From IMG/VR virus record IMGVR_UViG_3300010354_000656, positions 1 through 23,867 of that record: a DNA stretch of 23,867 nucleotides; one strand, written 5' to 3'. Each line of letters begins with the position of its first letter. Position 1 is the first letter of the stretch. Under the pieces are notes generated by a model. The model had not been told where the DNA came from. It worked only from the letters and a program-made list of their open reading frames with translations, and searched no databases. This DNA comes from a virus. A program made the position numbers and the translations under genes. This document shows, piece by piece, positions 9,303-23,856 of the stretch.

Positions 9303-9851
9303 ATGATCAACAATAGTGTAAATAGAAACGTTACAAGGCCATACCCAGTTTTACAAGCGTTGGTGAACGAACACGCATTAGGCAAGATACTAATTAAAAA
9401 CGTATACCAAGGCTGGCAAGGTGAGAGTATTCAACAAATAAGAGACAAACACGAATCAAATCCATATTCGCTTAGAATTGGAATGCCTCGAACAGACACT
9501 GAGTTGAAGGGTGATGCAATGTACTTTATATTACATTACCTATCCTACAATCCACTCACCAAAGATATAGAAAAGCGTGAATTAGTACCACTACGCAACA
9601 CTGAAAAAATCTATATCGGTCAATCTCTGGATGAAAAGGTGTATAGTGATTATCGATTATTTGTAGATGGTAACGTTATCGCTGATGATATGTATCTCAA
9701 GAAACATGAGTCAATAAAAGATACACCAGTAGGTGATTTATTAGTATCACTTGCACAGAAAATTGAAAAACTACAATTAGAAGTGATAAATTTGAAGCGT
9801 GAACTAAATAACAAACATATTTATACACAAGGTACCTTACATAATGAATGA
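9303..9851 (+). CDS. small fibre-associated protein with C-terminal coiled coil
   Basis: 182 residues. The N-terminal ~130 residues are mixed alpha/beta (LGKILIKNVYQGWQGESIQQ, GDAMYFILHYLSYNP). Residues ~115-140 (YRLFVDGNVIADDMYLKK) resemble the segment that precedes the S74 intramolecular chaperone in many phage fibres. Where the chaperone domain would begin, the protein instead goes directly into an amphipathic heptad helix (DLLVSLAQKIEKLQLEVINLKREL) and stops. It could be a trimeric fibre tip or collar protein, or a remnant of a longer S74-type fibre. The gene overlaps the next one by 8 bases. The function is inference; no catalytic motif is visible. Confidence 0.75.
   Translation: MINNSVNRNVTRPYPVLQALVNEHALGKILIKNVYQGWQGESIQQIRDKHESNPYSLRIGMPRTDTELKGDAMYFILHYLSYNPLTKDIEKRELVPLRNTEKIYIGQSLDEKVYSDYRLFVDGNVIADDMYLKKHESIKDTPVGDLLVSLAQKIEKLQLEVINLKRELNNKHIYTQGTLHNE
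9818..9825 (+). promoter_or_regulatory. TATTTATA, partial late-motif match before the ligase fusion gene
   Basis: TATTTATA lies inside the 3' end of the preceding gene, 18 bases before ATG 9844. It shares the first eight positions of TATTTATTA except the last base. Because it is in coding sequence and inexact, it is a weaker candidate than the intergenic copies. Confidence 0.22.
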
Positions 9852-11721
9852 ATTAACTAAATTCTTAGTTGAAAGCATATTGACTGAAGCACCAGCCGGA
9901 ATAACAGTATTGTTACCGGGTGGATTTAAGCCACCACACGGTGGTCATCTAGCATTAGCACAGCTATACGCATCACAACCAAACGTTTCCCAAGTAAAAA
10001 TACTTATAGGGCCAAAAGAAAGAGATGGCTACACAAGGGAGCAAAGCATGGCCGTTTGGAAAAAATTACTACTTGGATCACCAAACATAACAGTAGAACC
10101 GGTAGCAGAAAACAATCCACTATTAGGAGCCTACAAGTTTATTGAAACAGCCAAACCAGGAACTTATGCATTGGCTGCAAGTTCAAAAGGAGATGATTAT
10201 GCTAGAGTTAAACAGTTTGTTGATGGGCATGGTCCTAGTGGTAAATACAAGAGAGAGGGGGTTAATGTTGTTGAGTTACCACTAAACAGCAGACCAATAG
10301 TGTACAAAAACAGAACTGATAGTCGTAATGGACAGGAGGTTAGTGCAACCGTTCTTAGACAAGACTTAGCAACACAAAACTATAATGATTTCAAATCTAA
10401 TTATCCAGGACAACCAGAAAACATACTTAAAGACGTTTTCAACATACTAACAAAAAAGCCAATGAGAGAGTCGATGTTGTTAACCGAAGGTGGTGCAGCA
10501 GGTCATATGACACATCCTTACGAAGATTATGATCTAACGTTTGAAGACATTAAAAACATGATTGACTCTGCGTTGAGTGGTACGATTGAGTTTGCTCAAG
10601 AAAAGTTAGATGGTCAAAACTTAATGGTGACTTACAAGGATGGTGCAGTACGAGCAGCAAGAAATAAAGGTCATGTTAAAAATGCTGGTGCAACATCACT
10701 AACAGTAAAACAAATAGAAGACACGTTTGCTGGTAGAGGTCCAATACAAACTGCATTTGCAGAAGCAATGAAGGATTTGGAAAAAGCAATCAGCAAACTA
10801 ACACCAGCACAAAAACAAAAGTTTTTTGCAAATGGAAAAAAGTTTGTAAATCTAGAAGTTCTTTATCCAGAAACAGCAAACGTAGTACCTTACGGAGCAG
10901 CACAGCTTAGACTTCACAACATCACAGAATACGATCCTAATGGAAACGTGCTTGGAACAGATGCGGATTCAGCTGCAAGATTGCAAGGAGCACTGAGACA
11001 AGTAGAAGCAGAAAACCAGAAAACATATCAAATCAGAATCACAGATCCAGTCACAATCAACAAATCAAAAGACTACGAAAAGCAAAGGGCTGAGTTGGAT
11101 AAAATAGTAGATGATCTGCGTAACAAATTTAAACTCAAGCCATCTGACAAACTGGGAATGTATATACAAGAGTGGTGGAAAAAGTACATTACCGATATAG
11201 CAAAAACATATGGATATAAACCAACACCTGATACATTGCAGCAATTAGTAAATAGGTGGGGATTTTCAAATAAAGAAGTTAATATCAAAGCAATTCGCGA
11301 CGGAATCCAAAACGAGGATTTTAAAAACTGGGTTGATACTTTTGACAAAACCGATTTAGCAACACAAAAAAAGGTTTGTGTGAAACCAATTGAAAATCTG
11401 TTTTTAAAGCTGGGAGTTTACACGTTGAAAAACGTAGCACAGCTTGTAGCACTTAATCCTAACGATAGCGTAAGACAAATTAAAAGTGATCTACAATCAG
11501 CAATTGAACAGATTCGTGCAGCCGCTGCATCATCTGATATGGGTGATGATGACGCAGCATTAAAGTTTCTTAGAAGAGAATTACAACGTCTTAAGGACAT
11601 AGGAGGATTCAAAGCAATTGTACCACTGGAAGGCATTGTATTTAAGTATGATGGCAAACTTTACAAACTAACAGGTGCCTTTGCACCAATCAATCAAATA
11701 CTCGGATATTTAAAATTTTAA
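9844..11721 (+). CDS. fused nucleotidyltransferase (NMNAT/cytidylyltransferase-like) and ATP-dependent polynucleotide ligase
   Basis: 625 residues with three parts. Residues 1-15 (MNELTKFLVESILTE) form a short amphipathic leader ending LTE. Residues ~19-205 are a nucleotidyltransferase of the HxGH superfamily: GGFKPPHGGH (H32, H35) and the ISSTxxR-like VSATVLR (S167-R172), the nucleotide-binding signatures of NMN adenylyltransferases and TagD-type cytidylyltransferases. Residues ~215-625 carry covalent nucleotidyltransferase (ligase/capping) motifs: motif I EKLDGQN with K254 as the likely AMP-accepting lysine, motif III FVNLEVLYP (E338), motif IV LEGIVFK (E596-K601) and motif V-like KLYKLTG (K608). 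About 250 mostly helical residues separate motifs III and IV, far more than usual. MLLTEGGAAGH at 211-221 could be a second processing point. It may repair RNA or DNA ends; the substrate is unknown. Domain calls are firm, the pathway is inference. Confidence 0.88.
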   Translation: MNELTKFLVESILTEAPAGITVLLPGGFKPPHGGHLALAQLYASQPNVSQVKILIGPKERDGYTREQSMAVWKKLLLGSPNITVEPVAENNPLLGAYKFIETAKPGTYALAASSKGDDYARVKQFVDGHGPSGKYKREGVNVVELPLNSRPIVYKNRTDSRNGQEVSATVLRQDLATQNYNDFKSNYPGQPENILKDVFNILTKKPMRESMLLTEGGAAGHMTHPYEDYDLTFEDIKNMIDSALSGTIEFAQEKLDGQNLMVTYKDGAVRAARNKGHVKNAGATSLTVKQIEDTFAGRGPIQTAFAEAMKDLEKAISKLTPAQKQKFFANGKKFVNLEVLYPETANVVPYGAAQLRLHNITEYDPNGNVLGTDADSAARLQGALRQVEAENQKTYQIRITDPVTINKSKDYEKQRAELDKIVDDLRNKFKLKPSDKLGMYIQEWWKKYITDIAKTYGYKPTPDTLQQLVNRWGFSNKEVNIKAIRDGIQNEDFKNWVDTFDKTDLATQKKVCVKPIENLFLKLGVYTLKNVAQLVALNPNDSVRQIKSDLQSAIEQIRAAAASSDMGDDDAALKFLRRELQRLKDIGGFKAIVPLEGIVFKYDGKLYKLTGAFAPINQILGYLKF

Positions 11722-13139: not shown

Positions 13140-13967
13140 ATGAACGAAGAATCTAAAGGACTTTGGCATAACATTCGAGCTAAGCGAGCAAGAGGAGAAA
13201 AACCAGCTCGTAAAGGCTCCGATGCATACAACAAAGCAGTAGCAGCCGCTAAAAAAATAAATGCAATGAACGAAGAGGTTAGCATACAAGAATCACCAGA
13301 TGGCCTTACGGTTAATATAATAGAGGGTGGTAAAAAGATTGGTGAAATAGCGTTAGAAACATACGACCAAAAACACTACACCATTATAGATGCAAACATA
13401 GAGGACACAGAAAGAGGTAAGGGATATTATCAAAAAGCAATAATAGAGCTACTCAACAAAAAACCAAACATCATCATACACTCTGTATTCAGATCACCAG
13501 AAGCGGAGAGAGCTTGGCAGAGTCTATTAAAAAAGCTACCAGCGGACATTAAGCATAAAATACGGAAGTATCCTGAAGAAGGAACAACAGATATCGCAAT
13601 AACAAAAGGTGGAGCAATGAATGAAGTAACAATGTGTGAAACTTGCGCTCTTAGACTGCTAGAGGATATAAAAGCTGGCAAGTATGAACTTAATGAGGCT
13701 GAATATCAAGGTCGTGAAGTCAAGCTTGGTAAGCCGTTCAGACCAAAAGGAGGACCAAAAAAATTTGCAGTATATGTTAAAAACGATAAAGGAAATGTAG
13801 TAAAAGTGAATTTCGGAGATCCTGGACTATCAATAAAAAGAGATAATCCGGAACGCAAAAAAGCATTTAGAGCACGTCACAAGTGCTCACAAAAGAAAGA
13901 CAGAACAAGTGCAGGGTATTGGAGTTGTAGAATGTGGTCAAGTAAACCAGTTAGTAAAATCGTATAA
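13140..13967 (+). CDS. three-module protein: basic N-terminal motif, GNAT-like domain, C-terminal DUF-type phage domain
   Basis: 275 residues from ATG 13140, one base after the previous stop; an in-frame upstream start at 13104 would overlap the GAF gene by 35 bases and is less likely. Module 1 (1-40, GLWHNIRAKRARGEKPARKG) is a basic segment common in marine phage proteins. Module 2 (~45-155) looks like a GNAT acetyltransferase: it ends strands with DTERGKGYYQKAIIELL, like acetyl-CoA motif A R-x-x-G-x-G, followed by a strand/helix pair. Module 3 (~190-275) has GKPFRPKGGPKKFAVYVKN, VNFGDPG, RARHKCSQKK and YWSCRMW; I recall this as a widespread viral DUF (DUF6321-like, number uncertain) with two conserved cysteines. 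Stop and next start overlap by one base (TAATG). It may acetylate host or phage proteins; the substrate is unknown. Confidence 0.75.
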   Translation: MNEESKGLWHNIRAKRARGEKPARKGSDAYNKAVAAAKKINAMNEEVSIQESPDGLTVNIIEGGKKIGEIALETYDQKHYTIIDANIEDTERGKGYYQKAIIELLNKKPNIIIHSVFRSPEAERAWQSLLKKLPADIKHKIRKYPEEGTTDIAITKGGAMNEVTMCETCALRLLEDIKAGKYELNEAEYQGREVKLGKPFRPKGGPKKFAVYVKNDKGNVVKVNFGDPGLSIKRDNPERKKAFRARHKCSQKKDRTSAGYWSCRMWSSKPVSKIV

Positions 13968-14575
13968 TGGCCGTTGTTTATCAACACATAAGAAAAGATA
14001 CGAAGGAAGTGTTCTATGTTGGAATAGGCACTACAGAAAAAAGAGCACTATCTGATAGAGTTAGAAATGCTTTGTGGCATAACGTGGTCCAAAAAGCTGG
14101 TGGGTTTGAATATCAAATTTTAGCAAGCAGTTTATCGTGGAAAGAGGCTTGCAATGAAGAGAAGAGGCTTATATCAATTTATGGTAGACGTGATATTGGG
14201 ACAGGTATATTAGTCAACATGACTGATGGCGGTGATGGTCTGAGTGGATATAAACCCACCACAGAGTCTAACAAAAAAAGATCTGAAGCATTGTTGGGTA
14301 GAAAGAAGGTTTATGTAAAGGGTCCTAGAAAGAATCTGACTGAAGAACATAAGGTTAAATTGAGAAAACCCAAAAGCAATACTGAAAACTACAAAAAACC
14401 AAAAACAACAGAAGCAATAAAGAATTCAGCTAATACTAGAAGGAGGGTTACAGTAGAACAAGTTCAATTAATACATGAACTATTTATTAAGGGATTTACT
14501 AGAGGACAGATATCTATACAACTTAATATAACTGTGGATTTAGTTCAAAAATGGAAACACAAAACATTAAAATAA
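13967..14575 (+). CDS. GIY-YIG free-standing homing endonuclease
   Basis: 202 residues. The N-terminal GIY-YIG domain (1-90) has VYQ and FYVG in place of GIY and YIG, a likely catalytic Arg at R26, and the Glu of EACNEEKRLI at about E65. NUMOD3-like DNA-binding repeats follow (TESNKKRSEALLGRK; LTEEHKVKLRKPK), then a C-terminal helix-turn-helix (QVQLIHELFIKGFTRGQISIQLNITVDLVQKWKH). This is the seg/mob type of free-standing homing endonuclease, which nicks an intergenic or coding site in related phages and copies itself by recombination. It sits between two small basic protein genes with a one-base overlap at its start and one base at its end, as a neat insertion. No intron splice features are apparent around it. 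Confidence 0.93.
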   Translation: MAVVYQHIRKDTKEVFYVGIGTTEKRALSDRVRNALWHNVVQKAGGFEYQILASSLSWKEACNEEKRLISIYGRRDIGTGILVNMTDGGDGLSGYKPTTESNKKRSEALLGRKKVYVKGPRKNLTEEHKVKLRKPKSNTENYKKPKTTEAIKNSANTRRRVTVEQVQLIHELFIKGFTRGQISIQLNITVDLVQKWKHKTLK

Positions 14576-14805: not shown

Positions 14806-15024
14806 GTGACAGTAGTCAACAAGAAAATATCGAAGGAGACAGTAGCAACTTGGTGTATGATGCTCGCACTTTTTTTCAATCCTTTTGGGTTCGATATTGT
14901 ACAGTATTGGTTAATGTTACTAACTGGAAGTTTATGGAGAGCCAATTTCGTTTTGTATTGTGTAGCGGGTGTATTCTTTGGATTATCTACGTACTTTCGA
15001 TTCTTACATAAGAAGTATGACTAA
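14806..15024 (+). CDS. two-helix membrane protein (holin-like candidate)
   Basis: 72 residues starting at GTG 14806. Two hydrophobic helices are visible: ~15-40 (WCMMLALFFNPFGFDIVQYW and onward) and ~46-66 (ANFVLYCVAGVFFGLSTYF), with charged ends (KKISKE, FLHKKYD). Size and topology suit a small holin, but a generic inner-membrane protein is equally possible. The spanin-like pair at 17454-18150 is 2.4 kb away, not adjacent. A second frame starting at ATG 14799 is also open, but its product is less coherent, so I prefer this one. The 3' end overlaps the next gene by 8 bases, consistent with coupling. The 22-base gap upstream has no recognisable signal. Confidence 0.6.
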   Translation: MTVVNKKISKETVATWCMMLALFFNPFGFDIVQYWLMLLTGSLWRANFVLYCVAGVFFGLSTYFRFLHKKYD

Positions 15025-15583
15025 GCTTAAGAGTATATTATCCGAAGACTTACGTGCCTGGTTTGGCAAAGGTGGTGCAGGAGGTGTAGGTGGTGGAGGT
15101 TGGGATAGATACAATTCTTCGGGAGATAGAGTTGGTAAATGCGGAGATGCAAAAGAAGGAGATCCTTATTCGGCTTGTTTATCAAAAGAAAAGGCTCGTA
15201 AATTAGGCAAAGCAGGTAGAGCTGTATTTGTAAAAAGAAAACGAGCTGCACAGAAAAAAGGTGGAGATGCTAAAAAAGGTGGTGAACAATCAAAAGGACA
15301 AAAACCTATAAAAGTGAAAACAGGAGCAAATGAGGAGATGACCCCACAACAATATCAACAAAAAGGTATGCCGTTTAAAGATAAAACTAGCATCAAAGTA
15401 GGAGAAAATCTATTAGAGCGTTTAAATTATCTACTAGAAAAGAATGTACCAACTAATCCAACTAAATGGGCCTACTACAAAGCACAAGCCAAAAAGAAAT
15501 TTGACGTCTACCCATCAGCATATGCAAATGCATGGGCAGCAAAAAAATACAAAGCAGCGGGAGGGGGCTGGAAAAAAGGATGA
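15017..15583 (+). CDS. basic, lysine-rich phage protein with capsid-leader-like N-terminus
   Basis: 188 residues from ATG 15017; upstream in-frame starts would run through the membrane-protein gene. It begins MTKLKSILSED, a leader resembling T4 capsid-targeting sequences. A Gly-rich segment follows (~15-35), then a conserved phage block with GKCGD and YSACLSKEKARKLG (two cysteines), a Lys/Gly-rich linker (~75-110), and a C-terminal domain NPTKWAYYKAQAKKKFDVYP with AAGGGWKK, a motif recurrent in marine and giant-virus-related phage genomes. The net charge is strongly positive. A packaged DNA-binding internal protein, analogous in location though not sequence to T4 IPI-III, is a reasonable hypothesis. 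Stop and next start overlap as ATGA. Confidence 0.75.
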   Translation: MTKLKSILSEDLRAWFGKGGAGGVGGGGWDRYNSSGDRVGKCGDAKEGDPYSACLSKEKARKLGKAGRAVFVKRKRAAQKKGGDAKKGGEQSKGQKPIKVKTGANEEMTPQQYQQKGMPFKDKTSIKVGENLLERLNYLLEKNVPTNPTKWAYYKAQAKKKFDVYPSAYANAWAAKKYKAAGGGWKKG

Positions 15584-16326
15584 TTAAGTTAAAGGATTTA
15601 TTGTCTGAGGTTGGCTTATCAGAAGCGTTTGCAACATCGAAAGAATTGCAAGCAACAGTAGACCATCTTAATGGTAAGAAACGCGTTTTACTATTAACTA
15701 CATCTAACCGATACCAAATCCCAGAAGAAGAAAAGGATATACCAAAATCAACACAACTAGCACAAGTAATTAAAAAGGCGTTGGGAGAGAAAGTGGTGTT
15801 GATTGATGTACCAGAACTGAAGATATATCCGTGTGAAGGTAATGTATCGAGAAAGGATGGAAATAGTTGTGGACTAAAGGATGCACTACTCAAATCAAAA
15901 ACAAAAAACCCAAGTGGTAATCACAGATGCTGGGCATCCATTAATAACCCAGATGATGAACTCTGGAAAATATCTAAAGAGTTGTTTGAAAGTGACGCTG
16001 TAGTGTTTTTTGCATCAATACGTTGGGGACAAGCAAATGGATATTATCAAAAACTTATTGAGCGTCTTAATTGGATAGAAAACAGACACACTACACTAGA
16101 GGAGAATAATGTTGTGAAAAACATTGAAGCTGGTTTCATTTGCATTGGTCAAAACTGGAATGGTCCTGAGGTTGTTAAAACCCAAAAGCAAGTTCATGAA
16201 TTTTACGGATTCAAAACACCAGACACACTTTATTGGAACTGGCAGTATACAGAGGATGAGCTAGATGAAACGCAAGAGTCGTATAAAAAATCAGCATCAG
16301 AGTTTAAAAAAACCTTTAAGATCTAA
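15580..16326 (+). CDS. flavodoxin-like NAD(P)H/FMN oxidoreductase with capsid-leader-like N-terminus
   Basis: 248 residues from ATG 15580 (ATGA overlap; a GGAAAAAAGG string precedes it). Residues 1-15, MIKLKDLLSEVGLSE, form the leader. From ~34 a flavodoxin-like fold is visible: strand RVLLLTTSNRYQ with the phosphate loop, strand KVVLIDVPEL, strand DAVVFFASIRWGQANGYYQK (the flavin-contacting segment of NADPH-dependent FMN reductase/iron-sulfur flavoprotein families) and strand EAGFICIGQNW. Between strands 2 and 3 are cysteines (YPCEGN, NSCGLK, HRCWAS) that could bind a metal or cluster. The domain resembles NAD(P)H-dependent FMN reductases; the redox partner is unknown. Such an enzyme among virion-assembly genes is unusual. 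No capsid-leader homologue is needed for the fold, so the leader looks added. Confidence 0.72.
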   Translation: MIKLKDLLSEVGLSEAFATSKELQATVDHLNGKKRVLLLTTSNRYQIPEEEKDIPKSTQLAQVIKKALGEKVVLIDVPELKIYPCEGNVSRKDGNSCGLKDALLKSKTKNPSGNHRCWASINNPDDELWKISKELFESDAVVFFASIRWGQANGYYQKLIERLNWIENRHTTLEENNVVKNIEAGFICIGQNWNGPEVVKTQKQVHEFYGFKTPDTLYWNWQYTEDELDETQESYKKSASEFKKTFKI

Positions 16327-18166: not shown

Positions 18167-19741
18167 ATGGCAGAAGAGAAGAATCTCAAAGAGATTATTA
18201 AGCAGGAGTATATTAAATGCGCACGATCCGCCTCCTACTTCATGAAAAAATACTGCATGATCCAACACCCCACCAAGGGGAAAATTCCATTTCACCTATT
18301 TCCGTATCAGGAGGATGCATTACAAGACTTCCAAGACAACGATAGGATCATTATATTAAAGTCACGGCAATTAGGTATATCAACACTTATAGCTGGATAC
18401 GCTTTATGGATGATTTTATTTCAAAACGATAAAAACTGTCTTGTAGTTGCGATTGATCAAAACACGTCTAAAAACCTTGTAACAAAGGTAAAGGTGATGT
18501 TTGACAATTTACCAAGCTGGTTAAAGCTAAAAGCGGTTGAAAGTAATAAATTATCAATAAGACTATCAAACGGCTCTCAAATTAAAGCCGTATCAAGCAC
18601 AGGCACATCAGGACGTTCTGAAGCATTATCGCTTGTTATCATAGATGAAGCTGCGTTTGTAGATGGTGCAGAAGACTTGTGGGCATCACTACAACAAACA
18701 CTATCAACCGGTGGTCAAGGTATTTTATTATCCACACCTAATGGAACTGGTAACTTTTTTCACAAAATGTGGACAAAAGCAGAGGCAGGGGATAACAAGT
18801 TTAAAACACTAAGACTACCTTGGCAAGTACACCCAGAGCGAGATCAAGCTTGGAGAGATAGACAAGATGCGGAGTTGGGAATAAGACTAGCTGCGCAGGA
18901 GTGTGACTGTGATTTTTCCACTTCCGGTAACACAGTAGTATCACCTGAGTTGATATCATACTACATGCAAACCTACGCTCAAGATCCAGTTGAAAAGCGT
19001 GGATTTGACAACAACATATGGATTTGGGAAATACCAGATTACACTAAAAATTATATTGTAAGTGCGGACGTAGCGAGAGGTGATGGATCGGACTATTCTG
19101 GGTTTCACGTTATTGATGTGGAAAGTTGTAGACAAGTTGCTGAATATAAAGGACAGTTAACAACCAAAGACTTTGGTAACATGCTCGTTGCAATAGCAAC
19201 AGAGTATAATGATGCACTACTTGTTGTGGAAAATGCAAACGTAGGATGGGCAGCACTACAACAGATAATCGATAGAGGATACAAAAATCTATACTACACA
19301 TACAAAAGCGATGTACTAGACTCAGATAGATTCTTAACTAAAGGATATGACTTGTTAAGCAAGGCAGACATGGTAGCTGGATTTACAATGAGTCATAAAA
19401 CAAGACCACTTGCAATATCCAAGATGGAGTTGTATATTCGCGAGAAAAGCTGTATAATACGCAGTAAACGGTTGCTCGAAGAGTTGTATGTTTTTATTTG
19501 GAAAAATGCAAGACCAGAAGCAGCACAAGGATATAATGATGATTTGGTTATGAGTTTTAGTCAAGGTTTGTGGGTACGCGACACAGCGTTAAAATTAAGA
19601 CAAGCTGGTATTGAGATTAACAGAGCTGCAGTATCAGGGATCAAGTCAACTGTCTCAGTGTATAAACCAAGACAGGACAGTAATCCATGGAGCATACGCG
19701 ATTCTAAAGGTAATCAACAAGACATTAACTGGCTTCTATAA
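18167..19741 (+). CDS. terminase large subunit (T4 gp17-like)
   Basis: 524 residues. The N-terminal ATPase has an atypical P-loop KSRQLGIST (65-73), where T4 gp17 has SRQLGKTT, so the usual Lys before Ser/Thr is Ile and K65 may substitute. Walker B is LVIIDEAAF (D160, E161); the coupling motif is LLSTPNGTG (189-194). The C-terminal RNase H-fold nuclease has SADVARGDGSDYSG (D301), LVVENANVGW (E355) and YNDDLVMS (D458/D459), the three acidic metal ligands of the headful nuclease. The protein powers DNA translocation into the prohead and cuts the concatemer. ATG 18167 follows the spanin partner by 16 bases. Length is ~90 residues below T4 gp17 (610). Confidence 0.96.
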   Translation: MAEEKNLKEIIKQEYIKCARSASYFMKKYCMIQHPTKGKIPFHLFPYQEDALQDFQDNDRIIILKSRQLGISTLIAGYALWMILFQNDKNCLVVAIDQNTSKNLVTKVKVMFDNLPSWLKLKAVESNKLSIRLSNGSQIKAVSSTGTSGRSEALSLVIIDEAAFVDGAEDLWASLQQTLSTGGQGILLSTPNGTGNFFHKMWTKAEAGDNKFKTLRLPWQVHPERDQAWRDRQDAELGIRLAAQECDCDFSTSGNTVVSPELISYYMQTYAQDPVEKRGFDNNIWIWEIPDYTKNYIVSADVARGDGSDYSGFHVIDVESCRQVAEYKGQLTTKDFGNMLVAIATEYNDALLVVENANVGWAALQQIIDRGYKNLYYTYKSDVLDSDRFLTKGYDLLSKADMVAGFTMSHKTRPLAISKMELYIREKSCIIRSKRLLEELYVFIWKNARPEAAQGYNDDLVMSFSQGLWVRDTALKLRQAGIEINRAAVSGIKSTVSVYKPRQDSNPWSIRDSKGNQQDINWLL

Positions 19742-19771: not shown

Positions 19772-21631
19772 ATGGCTGAAAACACAACGCTTTTTAGTAG
19801 GCTACAAAAACTCTTTAGTACGGATGTAATTATCCGTAACGTAGGAGGAAACCAACTAAAGGTAATAGATACAGCTCGTATTCAATCGGACGGAAACATT
19901 GCAACCAACCGAAGAGTAGACCGTTTCTCAAGACTATTTTCCTCAATACCAGGATTTTCATATCACTCAGGCCAATTACAACTATATACTCGACTAGAGC
20001 TGTTTAGAGATTATGAGGCAATGGACACAGATAGCATCATATCTTCAGCACTAGATGTGTATGCTGATGAGTGTACTGCAAAGAATGAGTTTGGTGATAT
20101 GTTGTCAATTAGTTCGGGTAATGAGAAGGTGCAACAAGTTTTGCACAATCTGTTTTACGACATAATGAACATTGAGTTTAACTTGTGGCCTTGGATAAGA
20201 AACACACTGAAGTATGGCGACTTTTTCTTGAAACTTGACATAGCTGAGCGGTATGGTGTAATTAACGTAGATCCCATATCACCATACGAAATGATTCGTG
20301 AGGAGAACTTTGATCCGGCAAACCCACATAAAGTGAGGTTTAAGCGTGATTACACTGCGTTATCATCACTCACACACATGGCAGCTTCAAAAGAGACCAC
20401 ACAAGAGTATGATAACTACGAAGTAGCACACTTTAGATTACTTACAGATACAAACTTTTTACCATACGGTAGATCAATCATTGAACCATCAAGAAAGGTT
20501 TGGAAACAAATCACATTGATGGAAGATGCGATGTTGATTCATCGCATTATGCGCGCACCAGACAAGCGTATCTTCAAGATTGATATTGGTAACATACCAC
20601 CAAACGAAGTAGATGCGTTCATGGAGTCCATGATCAGTAAAATGAAAAAGGTACCTTATGTTGATCCAGAAACCGGTCAATATAACCTCAAGTACAACAT
20701 GCAAAACATACTTGAAGACTTTTATTTACCAGTCCGCGGTGGTGAAAGTGGAACTTCCATAGAAAACTTAGGTGGTCTCAACTACGATGGTATAGCAGAC
20801 ATCGAGTACTTAAAGAATCGTTTGCTTGGATCGTTGAAAATTCCAAAAGCATACTTAGGATACGAAGAGGATACCTCAGGGAAAGCAACACTTGCATCGC
20901 AAGATTTTCGTTTTGCACGGACAATTGAAAGAATACAAAAAATTATTGCATCCGAGCTATATAAGATAGCTGTTGTGCATTTATATGCTCAAGGATTTAC
21001 TGACGAAGATCTCGTAGACTTCACACTATCACTCACAGCACCATCTTCAGTATACGAAAAAGAAAAGATTGAGCTGTGGTCAACAAAGGTAACACTTGCT
21101 GGAGACATGGTGGATAAAAAGTTATTTAGTCGTGCGTGGATATACGAAAACGTATTCAACATGTCTGAAACTGAGTGGCTTAAAGAGCAAAACAGACTTG
21201 TGCAAGATGCAAAGGAACAGTTTAGATTGGAACAAATTAAAACTGAAGGCAACGACCCAGTTAAAACTGGTCAGTCGTTTGGTACCAAGCACGACCTTGC
21301 AATGTTGTATAAAGGAGATGGTGGAGTTCCTAAGGGATATGATGAGAGAACGAGTGAAATGCCTCCAGGAGGTTGGCCAGGTGCTGGACGTCCAGAAGAG
21401 CCAGGAACACACGGTACACACGAACATCCACTAGGATGGGATCCACTTGGAAACAAGACAATTGGCAAAGTGTACGAGCAGTCTGAGTGGAGAAAGTACT
21501 TATCTGAGGGTTTTGTATCTAGTGTAAAGGAGGCTTATACAAAAAAGCAAGCGTTAAAGGAAACTTACAGCGACAATCAAGAAGAAACCTTTAATTTATT
21601 GGACGAAAGTAACATTTTACCAGAAGAATAA
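19772..21631 (+). CDS. portal vertex protein (T4 gp20-like)
   Basis: 619 residues. It forms the dodecameric ring at the portal vertex through which DNA is packaged and ejected. Recognisable T4 gp20-type segments are the DSIISSALDVYADECT helix, NTLKYGDFFLKLD, VAHFRLLTDTNFLPYG, RAPDKRIFKIDIGNIPPNEV, and LLGSLKIPKAYLGYEEDT followed by SQDFRFARTIERIQK. It is about 95 residues longer than T4 gp20 (524). The extra length is a C-terminal tail starting ~515, with a Gly/Pro/His-rich low-complexity stretch (~530-560, PPGGWPGAGRPEEPGTHGTH), then a helical end. The N-terminal ~60 residues are basic. It starts after a candidate late promoter and is followed by two core-like genes and the protease, as in T4. 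Confidence 0.96.
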   Translation: MAENTTLFSRLQKLFSTDVIIRNVGGNQLKVIDTARIQSDGNIATNRRVDRFSRLFSSIPGFSYHSGQLQLYTRLELFRDYEAMDTDSIISSALDVYADECTAKNEFGDMLSISSGNEKVQQVLHNLFYDIMNIEFNLWPWIRNTLKYGDFFLKLDIAERYGVINVDPISPYEMIREENFDPANPHKVRFKRDYTALSSLTHMAASKETTQEYDNYEVAHFRLLTDTNFLPYGRSIIEPSRKVWKQITLMEDAMLIHRIMRAPDKRIFKIDIGNIPPNEVDAFMESMISKMKKVPYVDPETGQYNLKYNMQNILEDFYLPVRGGESGTSIENLGGLNYDGIADIEYLKNRLLGSLKIPKAYLGYEEDTSGKATLASQDFRFARTIERIQKIIASELYKIAVVHLYAQGFTDEDLVDFTLSLTAPSSVYEKEKIELWSTKVTLAGDMVDKKLFSRAWIYENVFNMSETEWLKEQNRLVQDAKEQFRLEQIKTEGNDPVKTGQSFGTKHDLAMLYKGDGGVPKGYDERTSEMPPGGWPGAGRPEEPGTHGTHEHPLGWDPLGNKTIGKVYEQSEWRKYLSEGFVSSVKEAYTKKQALKETYSDNQEETFNLLDESNILPEE

Positions 21632-22512: not shown

Positions 22513-23245
22513 AAAACTTACAGCACAGGAGATATTAGAAATCCGCGAGTATGTAAAAAAACTACGCAAGGAAGGTAGTACGTCGGCACAAGGAGTTCCT
22601 GGCTATCAAACACCGGCAGCATTTACTGGTGAGGAAGGTGGTGAAGGAACAACTCAACTAGATCTTGGTGATGGACAGTATGCATACACAGAAAAACCAC
22701 CAAAAAAGAAAAGGCATTTCATAAAGCTACATGAAGTCAGCTACAAAGCGTTTAAGCAGGATGAAAGTGCTAATGCGGTACAAAAAATCAATCGCAAGAT
22801 ACTTGAGGTGAATAAAATGATCGGAGAAATTTCACGATCGTTAGACCACAGCATCAAACTAAAAAACGAAACATCGCTAGATAACTCAGCTTATTGGAAG
22901 CGCACAAACGAAGCAATACTAAAAATTAGCAAGAGGTTGAGTGAGGTAAACAAGAAAGCACGCAAACTTGCAAACCTTAAAGAATTAGCCCAAGCCGATT
23001 TAAAAAATAAATTAGCTGGATTGTTTGTAAAGGCTGGTATGGATGTGAAAGGTGAAGATATTACAATGAACAAAGTTGGAACAGAACAGTATGAGATTGA
23101 TGTGTTTTTACACGGTGAACCATACGCAATCGATTACAACAATGGTGAATTAGTGTTTCAAGATTACGATAAAGAAGTTAGACTTGGAAACATTAACCAA
23201 GAATCTGAACTAATCAAAAACATTGCACAAACATTAGGAGCATGA
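22502..23245 (+). CDS. coiled-coil phage protein before the prohead protease
   Basis: 247 residues. A helical N-terminus (LTAQEILEIREYVKKLRKEG) is followed by a Gly/Thr-rich flexible stretch (~26-65), a basic patch (KPPKKKRHFIKLHE), two coiled-coil helices (~92-165, KINRKILEVNKMIGEISRSL), and a small beta domain at the C-terminus (TEQYEIDVFLHGEPYAIDYN). No enzyme motif. Position directly before the protease and 11-base overlap with the previous gene point to prohead core, perhaps cleaved during maturation. ATGA overlap with the protease gene (23242-23245) suggests matched production. Confidence 0.74.
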   Translation: MSSKKLTAQEILEIREYVKKLRKEGSTSAQGVPGYQTPAAFTGEEGGEGTTQLDLGDGQYAYTEKPPKKKRHFIKLHEVSYKAFKQDESANAVQKINRKILEVNKMIGEISRSLDHSIKLKNETSLDNSAYWKRTNEAILKISKRLSEVNKKARKLANLKELAQADLKNKLAGLFVKAGMDVKGEDITMNKVGTEQYEIDVFLHGEPYAIDYNNGELVFQDYDKEVRLGNINQESELIKNIAQTLGA

Positions 23246-23856
23246 ACAAACAAGTAATAGTTGACTTTATAGGCTCGATTGAATACACACCAGAGCAGAT
23301 TAACGAATCGTTAACAAAAAATAACGGTAAGTTGATTGTTAGTGGTATTATGCAAAGAGGTAGTACAGACGAGCAACGGGCGTTTAATCAAAATGGAAGA
23401 AGCTATCCACTGCCAATACTTAGGCGTGAAGCCGATAAGTATAAGCGATCATTCATAGCAGAACGCAGAGCATTAGGTGAACTGGACCATCCAGAATCCC
23501 AAGTTGTGAACTTATCAAACGTGTCTCACAACGTGTTAGATTTGTGGTGGAGTGGTAATGATCTGATGGGCAAAATTGAAATACTACCAACACCATCTGG
23601 AAACATAGCAAAGGAGTTGTTAAAGGCAGGTATTCGTTTAGGAATTTCTTCTCGTGGAATGGGTAGTGTAAAAAATCTTGGAGAAGGCAAGGTAGAAGTA
23701 CAAGACGACTTTGAAATTGTTTGCTGGGACTTGGTAAGTAATCCATCTACACAAGGAGCTTTTATGAACAACCTTAACGAAAGCAAAAGTGTTGTTAAAG
23801 TTGACAAGTATTCAAAAATCAATTCACTAATTGGTGACATAATCTCATTAATGTAA
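23242..23856 (+). CDS. prohead core protease (T4 gp21-like, S77 serine protease)
   Basis: 204 residues, close to T4 gp21 (212). The fold markers are present: RAFNQNGRSYPLPIL, ALGELDHPE with the catalytic His at H83, AGIRLGISSRGMG with the serine at S136 or S137, and FEIVCWDLVSNPS with D163. This enzyme cleaves scaffold, core and capsid-targeted proteins after Leu/Ile-x-Glu sites during head maturation, then degrades itself. Its presence is what makes the LxE-ending leaders upstream (9844, 15017, 15580, 16784) potential substrates. The gene begins with an ATGA overlap and is followed 5 bases later by another start codon. Confidence 0.95.
   Translation: MNKQVIVDFIGSIEYTPEQINESLTKNNGKLIVSGIMQRGSTDEQRAFNQNGRSYPLPILRREADKYKRSFIAERRALGELDHPESQVVNLSNVSHNVLDLWWSGNDLMGKIEILPTPSGNIAKELLKAGIRLGISSRGMGSVKNLGEGKVEVQDDFEIVCWDLVSNPSTQGAFMNNLNESKSVVKVDKYSKINSLIGDIISLM

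Follow-up and report, generated by a model that had tools for sequence, protein, structure and literature searches.

A putative head-packaged pre-protein of T4-like phages combining an NMNAT-like nucleotidyltransferase with an RNA-ligase-like domain

The locus and its gene neighbourhood

The window, i.e., the whole stretch of 23,867 nucleotides analysed here, is a 23.9-kb virus record of a T4-like phage. One gene on its plus strand (9844..11721) encodes a 625-aa pre-protein, as delimited by the ORF translation, relatives and an AlphaFold model. The chain is 67-69% identical to the full-length relatives L001-L004, and a chance origin of the ORF is ruled out by these relatives and by the invariant residues described below. 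The gene lies between tail or neck genes and terminase genes (PHROG matches). The assembly-gene neighbourhood reported by the first-pass annotation was confirmed by PHROG and Pfam matches downstream, on the same strand, to the terminase large subunit (18167..19741; phrog_2, 1.1e-48), the portal protein (19772..21631; phrog_213, 7e-64) and a T4 gp21-type prohead protease (23242..23856; Peptidase_S77, 7.2e-25; phrog_207, 9.6e-52), which is a candidate processing enzyme and is present in 10 of the 11 records tested. Head packaging would best explain this neighbourhood.

T4 internal proteins are packaged via a short N-terminal targeting peptide that is cut by gp21 at L/I-x-E (PMC9026906). The N-terminus of the window protein (MNELTKFLVESILTE, 9844..9888, plus strand) resembles these capsid-targeting peptides and likewise ends in LxE, with a cut predicted after E15 (LTE|A) from the family N-termini and the gp21 motif. 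An [LI]xE motif ~10 to 18 residues in was found in 32 of 37 N-termini before the HxGH domain, against a mean of 9.8 and a maximum of 18 in shuffles. A short peptide ending in L/I-x-E and a gp21-type protease in the same genome, which together characterize CTS-bearing, gp21-processed head proteins, are both found. The tag is similar to those of T4 IPI-III and Alt (PMC9026906), but the window protein carries other cargo and has a second predicted cut between two enzyme domains. Two plus-strand neighbours carry tags of the same kind, namely a protein starting MTKLKSILSE (15017..15583) and one starting MIKLKDLLSE (15580..16326), which is flavodoxin-like by eye and whose start overlaps the preceding stop region. 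The latter tag recurs identically on unrelated proteins in other phages, where tags take the form MIKLKD[LI][LI/N]xE.

A small gene elsewhere in the window (13967-14575) has a GIY-YIG-like start (VVYQHIRKDTKEVFYVGIG) by eye and possibly encodes a homing endonuclease. In Microcystis phage Mel-JY01, the protein MIKLKSLLQEIISDRVWHLTT (L179, 35276-35923) bears the same tag type and, by eye, may be ADP-ribosyltransferase-like. Neighbours of a stand-alone ligase in a 462-kb phage (L011, 8198 and 8913) share a tag like MKFLKSYEEFLNE; a regular-expression scan for this huge-phage tag gives three proteins in 50 kb, which is suggestive only.

Two nucleotidyltransferase folds on one chain

The AlphaFold model of the full chain (67 relatives in the alignment) has a mean pLDDT of 92.0 and consists of two folded domains, with residues 206-216 as a linker of pLDDT <50. 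The first-pass annotation had placed an HxGH and a KxDG nucleotidyltransferase domain on one chain, and both are real: the motifs are found at residues 26-35 (GGFKPPHGGH), 166-172 (VSATVLR), 253-259 (EKLDGQN, with K254) and 595-601 (LEGIVFK), and the folds agree.

The HxGH half spans residues ~20-208 (9901..10467, plus strand) and is NMNAT/PPAT-like in its model and structure matches. It has the HxGH motif GGFKPPHGGH (9919..9948, plus strand) and the ISSTxxR-type motif VSATVLR (10339..10359, plus strand) on a Rossmann-like fold, the combination that defines the HxGH nucleotidyltransferase superfamily (CTP_transf_like). In a VIA structure comparison of the predicted model, PPAT, NMNAT and related HxGH enzymes matched residues ~20-208 at Z ~14, a fold match from which the substrate cannot be read. 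Fold and both motifs are shared with NMNAT/NadM and PPAT, whereas the window domain falls below all curated cut-offs: the profile searches proposed earlier for each domain gave the HxGH half only sub-cut-off NCBIfam matches, NMNAT families being the best of these in several members, and PF01467 (Pfam) matches relatives only. As to loss of the catalytic motifs in relatives, which the first-pass annotation had held to count against its reading, KxDG is kept everywhere and HxGH in close relatives, but the first His of HxGH is gone in a large marine branch with GxHH (28 of 59 motif counts), where the predicted enzyme may be changed or inactive. Likeness to NMNAT suggests a role in NAD metabolism. 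The NAD-salvage reading is weakened because NadV was absent from 10 of 11 records in a co-occurrence search, including the complete Mel-JY01 genome.

The ligase-like half comprises residues 216-625 (10489..11718, plus strand), with GGAAGHM as its predicted mature N-terminus. In order along the plus strand, it contains motif I EKLDGQN with the nucleophile K254 (10600..10620), the segment NLEVLYPETANVVPY with E338 and an Rnl1-like ExxYPExxxVxxY signature (10849..10893), a mostly helical insertion of ~200 residues (11053..11613), and motif IV LEGIVFK (E596) followed by a motif V-like YKLTG (K608) (11626..11676). The equivalents of E-K-x-D-G, R-N, E338, E596 and K608 are invariant across an alignment of 35 ligase domains with identities as low as 26%, while the second lysine of motif V (KxK in classical ligases) is replaced by Thr (YKxTG).

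Since all structures listed by VIA for the full model matched the HxGH half, residues 216-625 were folded alone (pLDDT 91.5), and the ligase fold that had been expected was recovered. Foldseek placed T4 Rnl1 first (E 2.3e-4) among top matches that include archaeal and fungal tRNA ligases, whereas the best VIA match was a Naegleria RNA ligase (Z 9.4), with fungal Trl1 and T4 Rnl1 and Rnl2 at Z ~8 to 9. These values are moderate, yet nearly all matches belong to one superfamily and the catalytic residues align. Sequence and fold features of the RNA ligase superfamily are present as KxDG on an adenylylation-domain fold, motif IV EGxVF and one motif V lysine. No usable match was obtained for this half in Pfam, PHROG, NCBIfam, PADLOC or PDB sequence searches.

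With T4 Rnl1 and Trl1/Rnl-type ligases the window ligase has in common the KxDG nucleophile, the order I, Ia-like RN, E, IV, V and the predicted fold. It differs in the long helical insertion before motif IV, the motif V YKxTG, the HxGH fusion, an N-terminus predicted to be released at GG, and the lack of a Pfam RNA_ligase match; PF09511, the T4 Rnl1 family, does match a separate ligase of Mel-JY01. The ExxYPExxxVxxY signature is shared with that Rnl1-type ligase, a weak likeness (hhalign E 0.0049, probability 7.3). The insertion, which is novel, and the single motif V lysine would fit a KxDG domain that adenylylates or caps a protein or small molecule instead of RNA, but we consider this quite unlikely, given that the nearest folds are RNA ligases and that one relative carries a tRNA-processing partner domain.

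The first-pass annotation had also allowed for NAD use by the ligase, which finds no support: in fold the domain belongs with ATP-type RNA ligases, no family match to NAD-dependent DNA ligases was found, and the domain preceding the KxDG half is HxGH by fold, with no Ia-like NAD domain seen. A related proposal, in which NMN is turned into NAD by the HxGH half and released again when the ligase half consumes that NAD, draws on the NMNAT-likeness and on a NadM-Nudix-like neighbour in one relative (L034). It is highly improbable in view of the ATP-using nearest folds and the rarity of NadV noted above.

The junction upstream of the ligase start

The disordered linker ends in MLLTE (10459..10488, plus strand), and a prohead-protease cut LTE|GG is predicted after E215. 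L/I-x-E is the cleavage motif of T4 gp21 (PMC9026906). In 62 distinct junction contexts the ligase starts with a conserved GGxxGHM, P3 is Leu or Ile in all 62, and the P1 residue is Glu (47 contexts), Met (14) or Cys (one), although the junction sequences are related, so that these counts overstate independence and the P values overstate the case. A Shine-Dalgarno-like site lies upstream of 13 of the 14 distinct junction Met, which are in frame, compared with 32 of 1942 other internal Met; at Met-type junctions, the preceding Lys-Glu is encoded by AAGGAG in 16 of the 18 listed, compared with 25 of 592 Lys-Glu pairs elsewhere. Members with the reversed domain order begin Met-Gly-Gly (MGG) at the same residue. 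Because LxE junctions, AAGGAG + ATG junctions and MGG starts share this one residue, the ligase with N-terminus GG appears to be freed by the protease, by internal translation or by standing first in the chain.

It had been supposed that one chain does both jobs. This is not favoured, as the ligase begins exactly where the linker carries a prohead-protease motif, a spot that in other members has an ATG preceded by an internal ribosome-binding site, and the two enzymes are therefore probably separated from each other. The chain might instead remain intact as a bifunctional enzyme that is expressed late and serves RNA repair or NAD metabolism inside the cell, with LxE only a hydrophobic lead-in to the ligase; a late-gene position alone does not prove packaging, and the conservation of hydrophobic residues at P3 and P4 could have a different cause, such as structure. 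We regard this as unlikely, given a linker that lacks confident structure, the strong internal ribosome-binding site that Met-type members have precisely at this junction, and the start of reversed-order members at the same residue.

A different KWDGA domain (DUF6267-like) occurs on HxGH proteins of ~630-1400 aa (L129, L136, L138-L140, L149, L151, L159 and L170) and also starts after an LxE junction, (I/V)LTE|TKANTHLTHLEEL or LE|AKANTHL. One chain (L005, 5992-8295) carries DUF6267 together with HxGH and a pol-beta-like segment whose start reads LVE|GGNVF. T4-like cyanophage cytidyltransferases with DUF6267 (phrog_395, phrog_3041 and phrog_455) likewise combine HxGH with a KxDG-bearing domain preceded by LxE. 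Homology between the ligase domain and the DUF6267 KxDG domain was considered, and none was detected (hhalign probability 1.3). A literature search found no papers on DUF6267 or Mel-JY01.

Domain pairing and the packaged-repair reading

Searches recovered the ligase domain from at least 579 stretches of environmental viral contigs but from just three of 50,697 phage records; one of the three is an isolate, Microcystis phage Mel-JY01. A cellular origin of the matches in genome contigs was rejected, as the sequences look like phage in MAGs. Of 53 complete non-redundant ligase chains, 52 (one of them truncated at the 3' end) have an HxGH or GxHH domain as well, a figure which could be inflated since some loci were fetched via an HxGH query; in the exception, L011, HxGH is in the next gene. 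HxGH comes first in 44 of the paired chains and the ligase in eight, and the existence of both orders points to a functional connection between the domains. The pairing is unusual, as had been noted, but as a widespread arrangement it is no isolated oddity.

Other partners in relatives are a CCA/poly(A) polymerase head domain (L173), a Nudix domain (L034) and a zeta/PNK-like P-loop kinase (L048 and L061), and a HAD-like DFDDTL segment was seen by eye in L024 and L025. These end-processing partners together with the RNA-ligase fold suggest a function of the predicted ligase in the repair of RNA, probably tRNA. A virion-assembly factor with secondary enzyme activity would also suit a gene between tail or neck and terminase genes, and has a precedent in T4 Rnl1 (gp63), which doubles as the tail-fibre attachment catalyst. 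Such a role is improbable here, as the catalytic residues are all invariant and the diverse partner enzymes point to chemistry.

Further chain arrangements were noted. A Flavobacteriales MAG encodes a phage-derived 1906-aa chain (L173, 838-6555) with the CCA/poly(A) polymerase head, HxGH and the ligase. In L062 (1450-5058) a retropepsin-like Zn_protease match (PF05618) and a pol-beta-like segment lie between HxGH and the ligase. That position is occupied in L015, L016, L017, L019, L023, L024 and L058 by a recurrent helical segment (QMKDxLKxxGLxxxxxLPGGxxxxLL), which is LETM1-like by eye and gave no Pfam match.

The reading we favour, at a probability of about 0.6, is that the pre-protein is packaged in the head and split by the protease, and that it brings in an RNA ligase together with an NMNAT-like enzyme, probably to repair tRNA, to restore NAD or both. 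The first 15 residues would act as the capsid-targeting peptide. As the head matures, the gp21-type protease encoded by the phage itself would cut after LTE at 15 and 215, as the sequence motifs predict, and so set the NMNAT-like adenylyltransferase free from the RNA-ligase-like enzyme, which would then begin with GGAAGHM. The two products would be ejected into the host with the viral DNA. The ligase would self-adenylylate K254 with ATP and seal broken RNA, most likely cleaved tRNA to judge from its fold and the partner domains of relatives, while the HxGH enzyme would make a dinucleotide, e.g., NAD from NMN and ATP as putative substrates. Together they may safeguard translation and NAD as soon as infection begins. 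The separate Rnl1-type ligase that Mel-JY01 has besides the ligase domain described here counts against the packaged-repair reading.

Polyvalent proteins of phages, which are believed to be carried in the virion and injected (Iyer et al. 2017; accessible part of PMC5512222), combine several conflict-related domains on one chain; many domain combinations occur in the present family, whose packaging is predicted. A text search of the accessible part of that paper did not find the HxGH + ligase combination, and release by LxE or an internal start is not described there (PMC5512222). Nor were this pre-protein family, its ligase clade and its release mechanism found in the accessible parts of the literature consulted.

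At somewhat below even odds, we tentatively extend this to a whole class of T4-like phages, large and with hardly any cultured members, which would package pre-proteins, with a new RNA-ligase clade always freed at the same GG, by protease or internal translation, alongside an NMNAT-like enzyme, as an injected RNA-repair and NAD kit acting before phage gene expression. The junction offers a clear, testable case in which one and the same boundary would serve for protease cleavage in some phages and for internal initiation of translation in others. The phage RNA-repair enzymes known so far are synthesized once infection is under way. Delivery in the virion, if it occurs, would allow cleaved tRNA to be repaired, and NAD perhaps restored, before host defences can stop phage protein synthesis.
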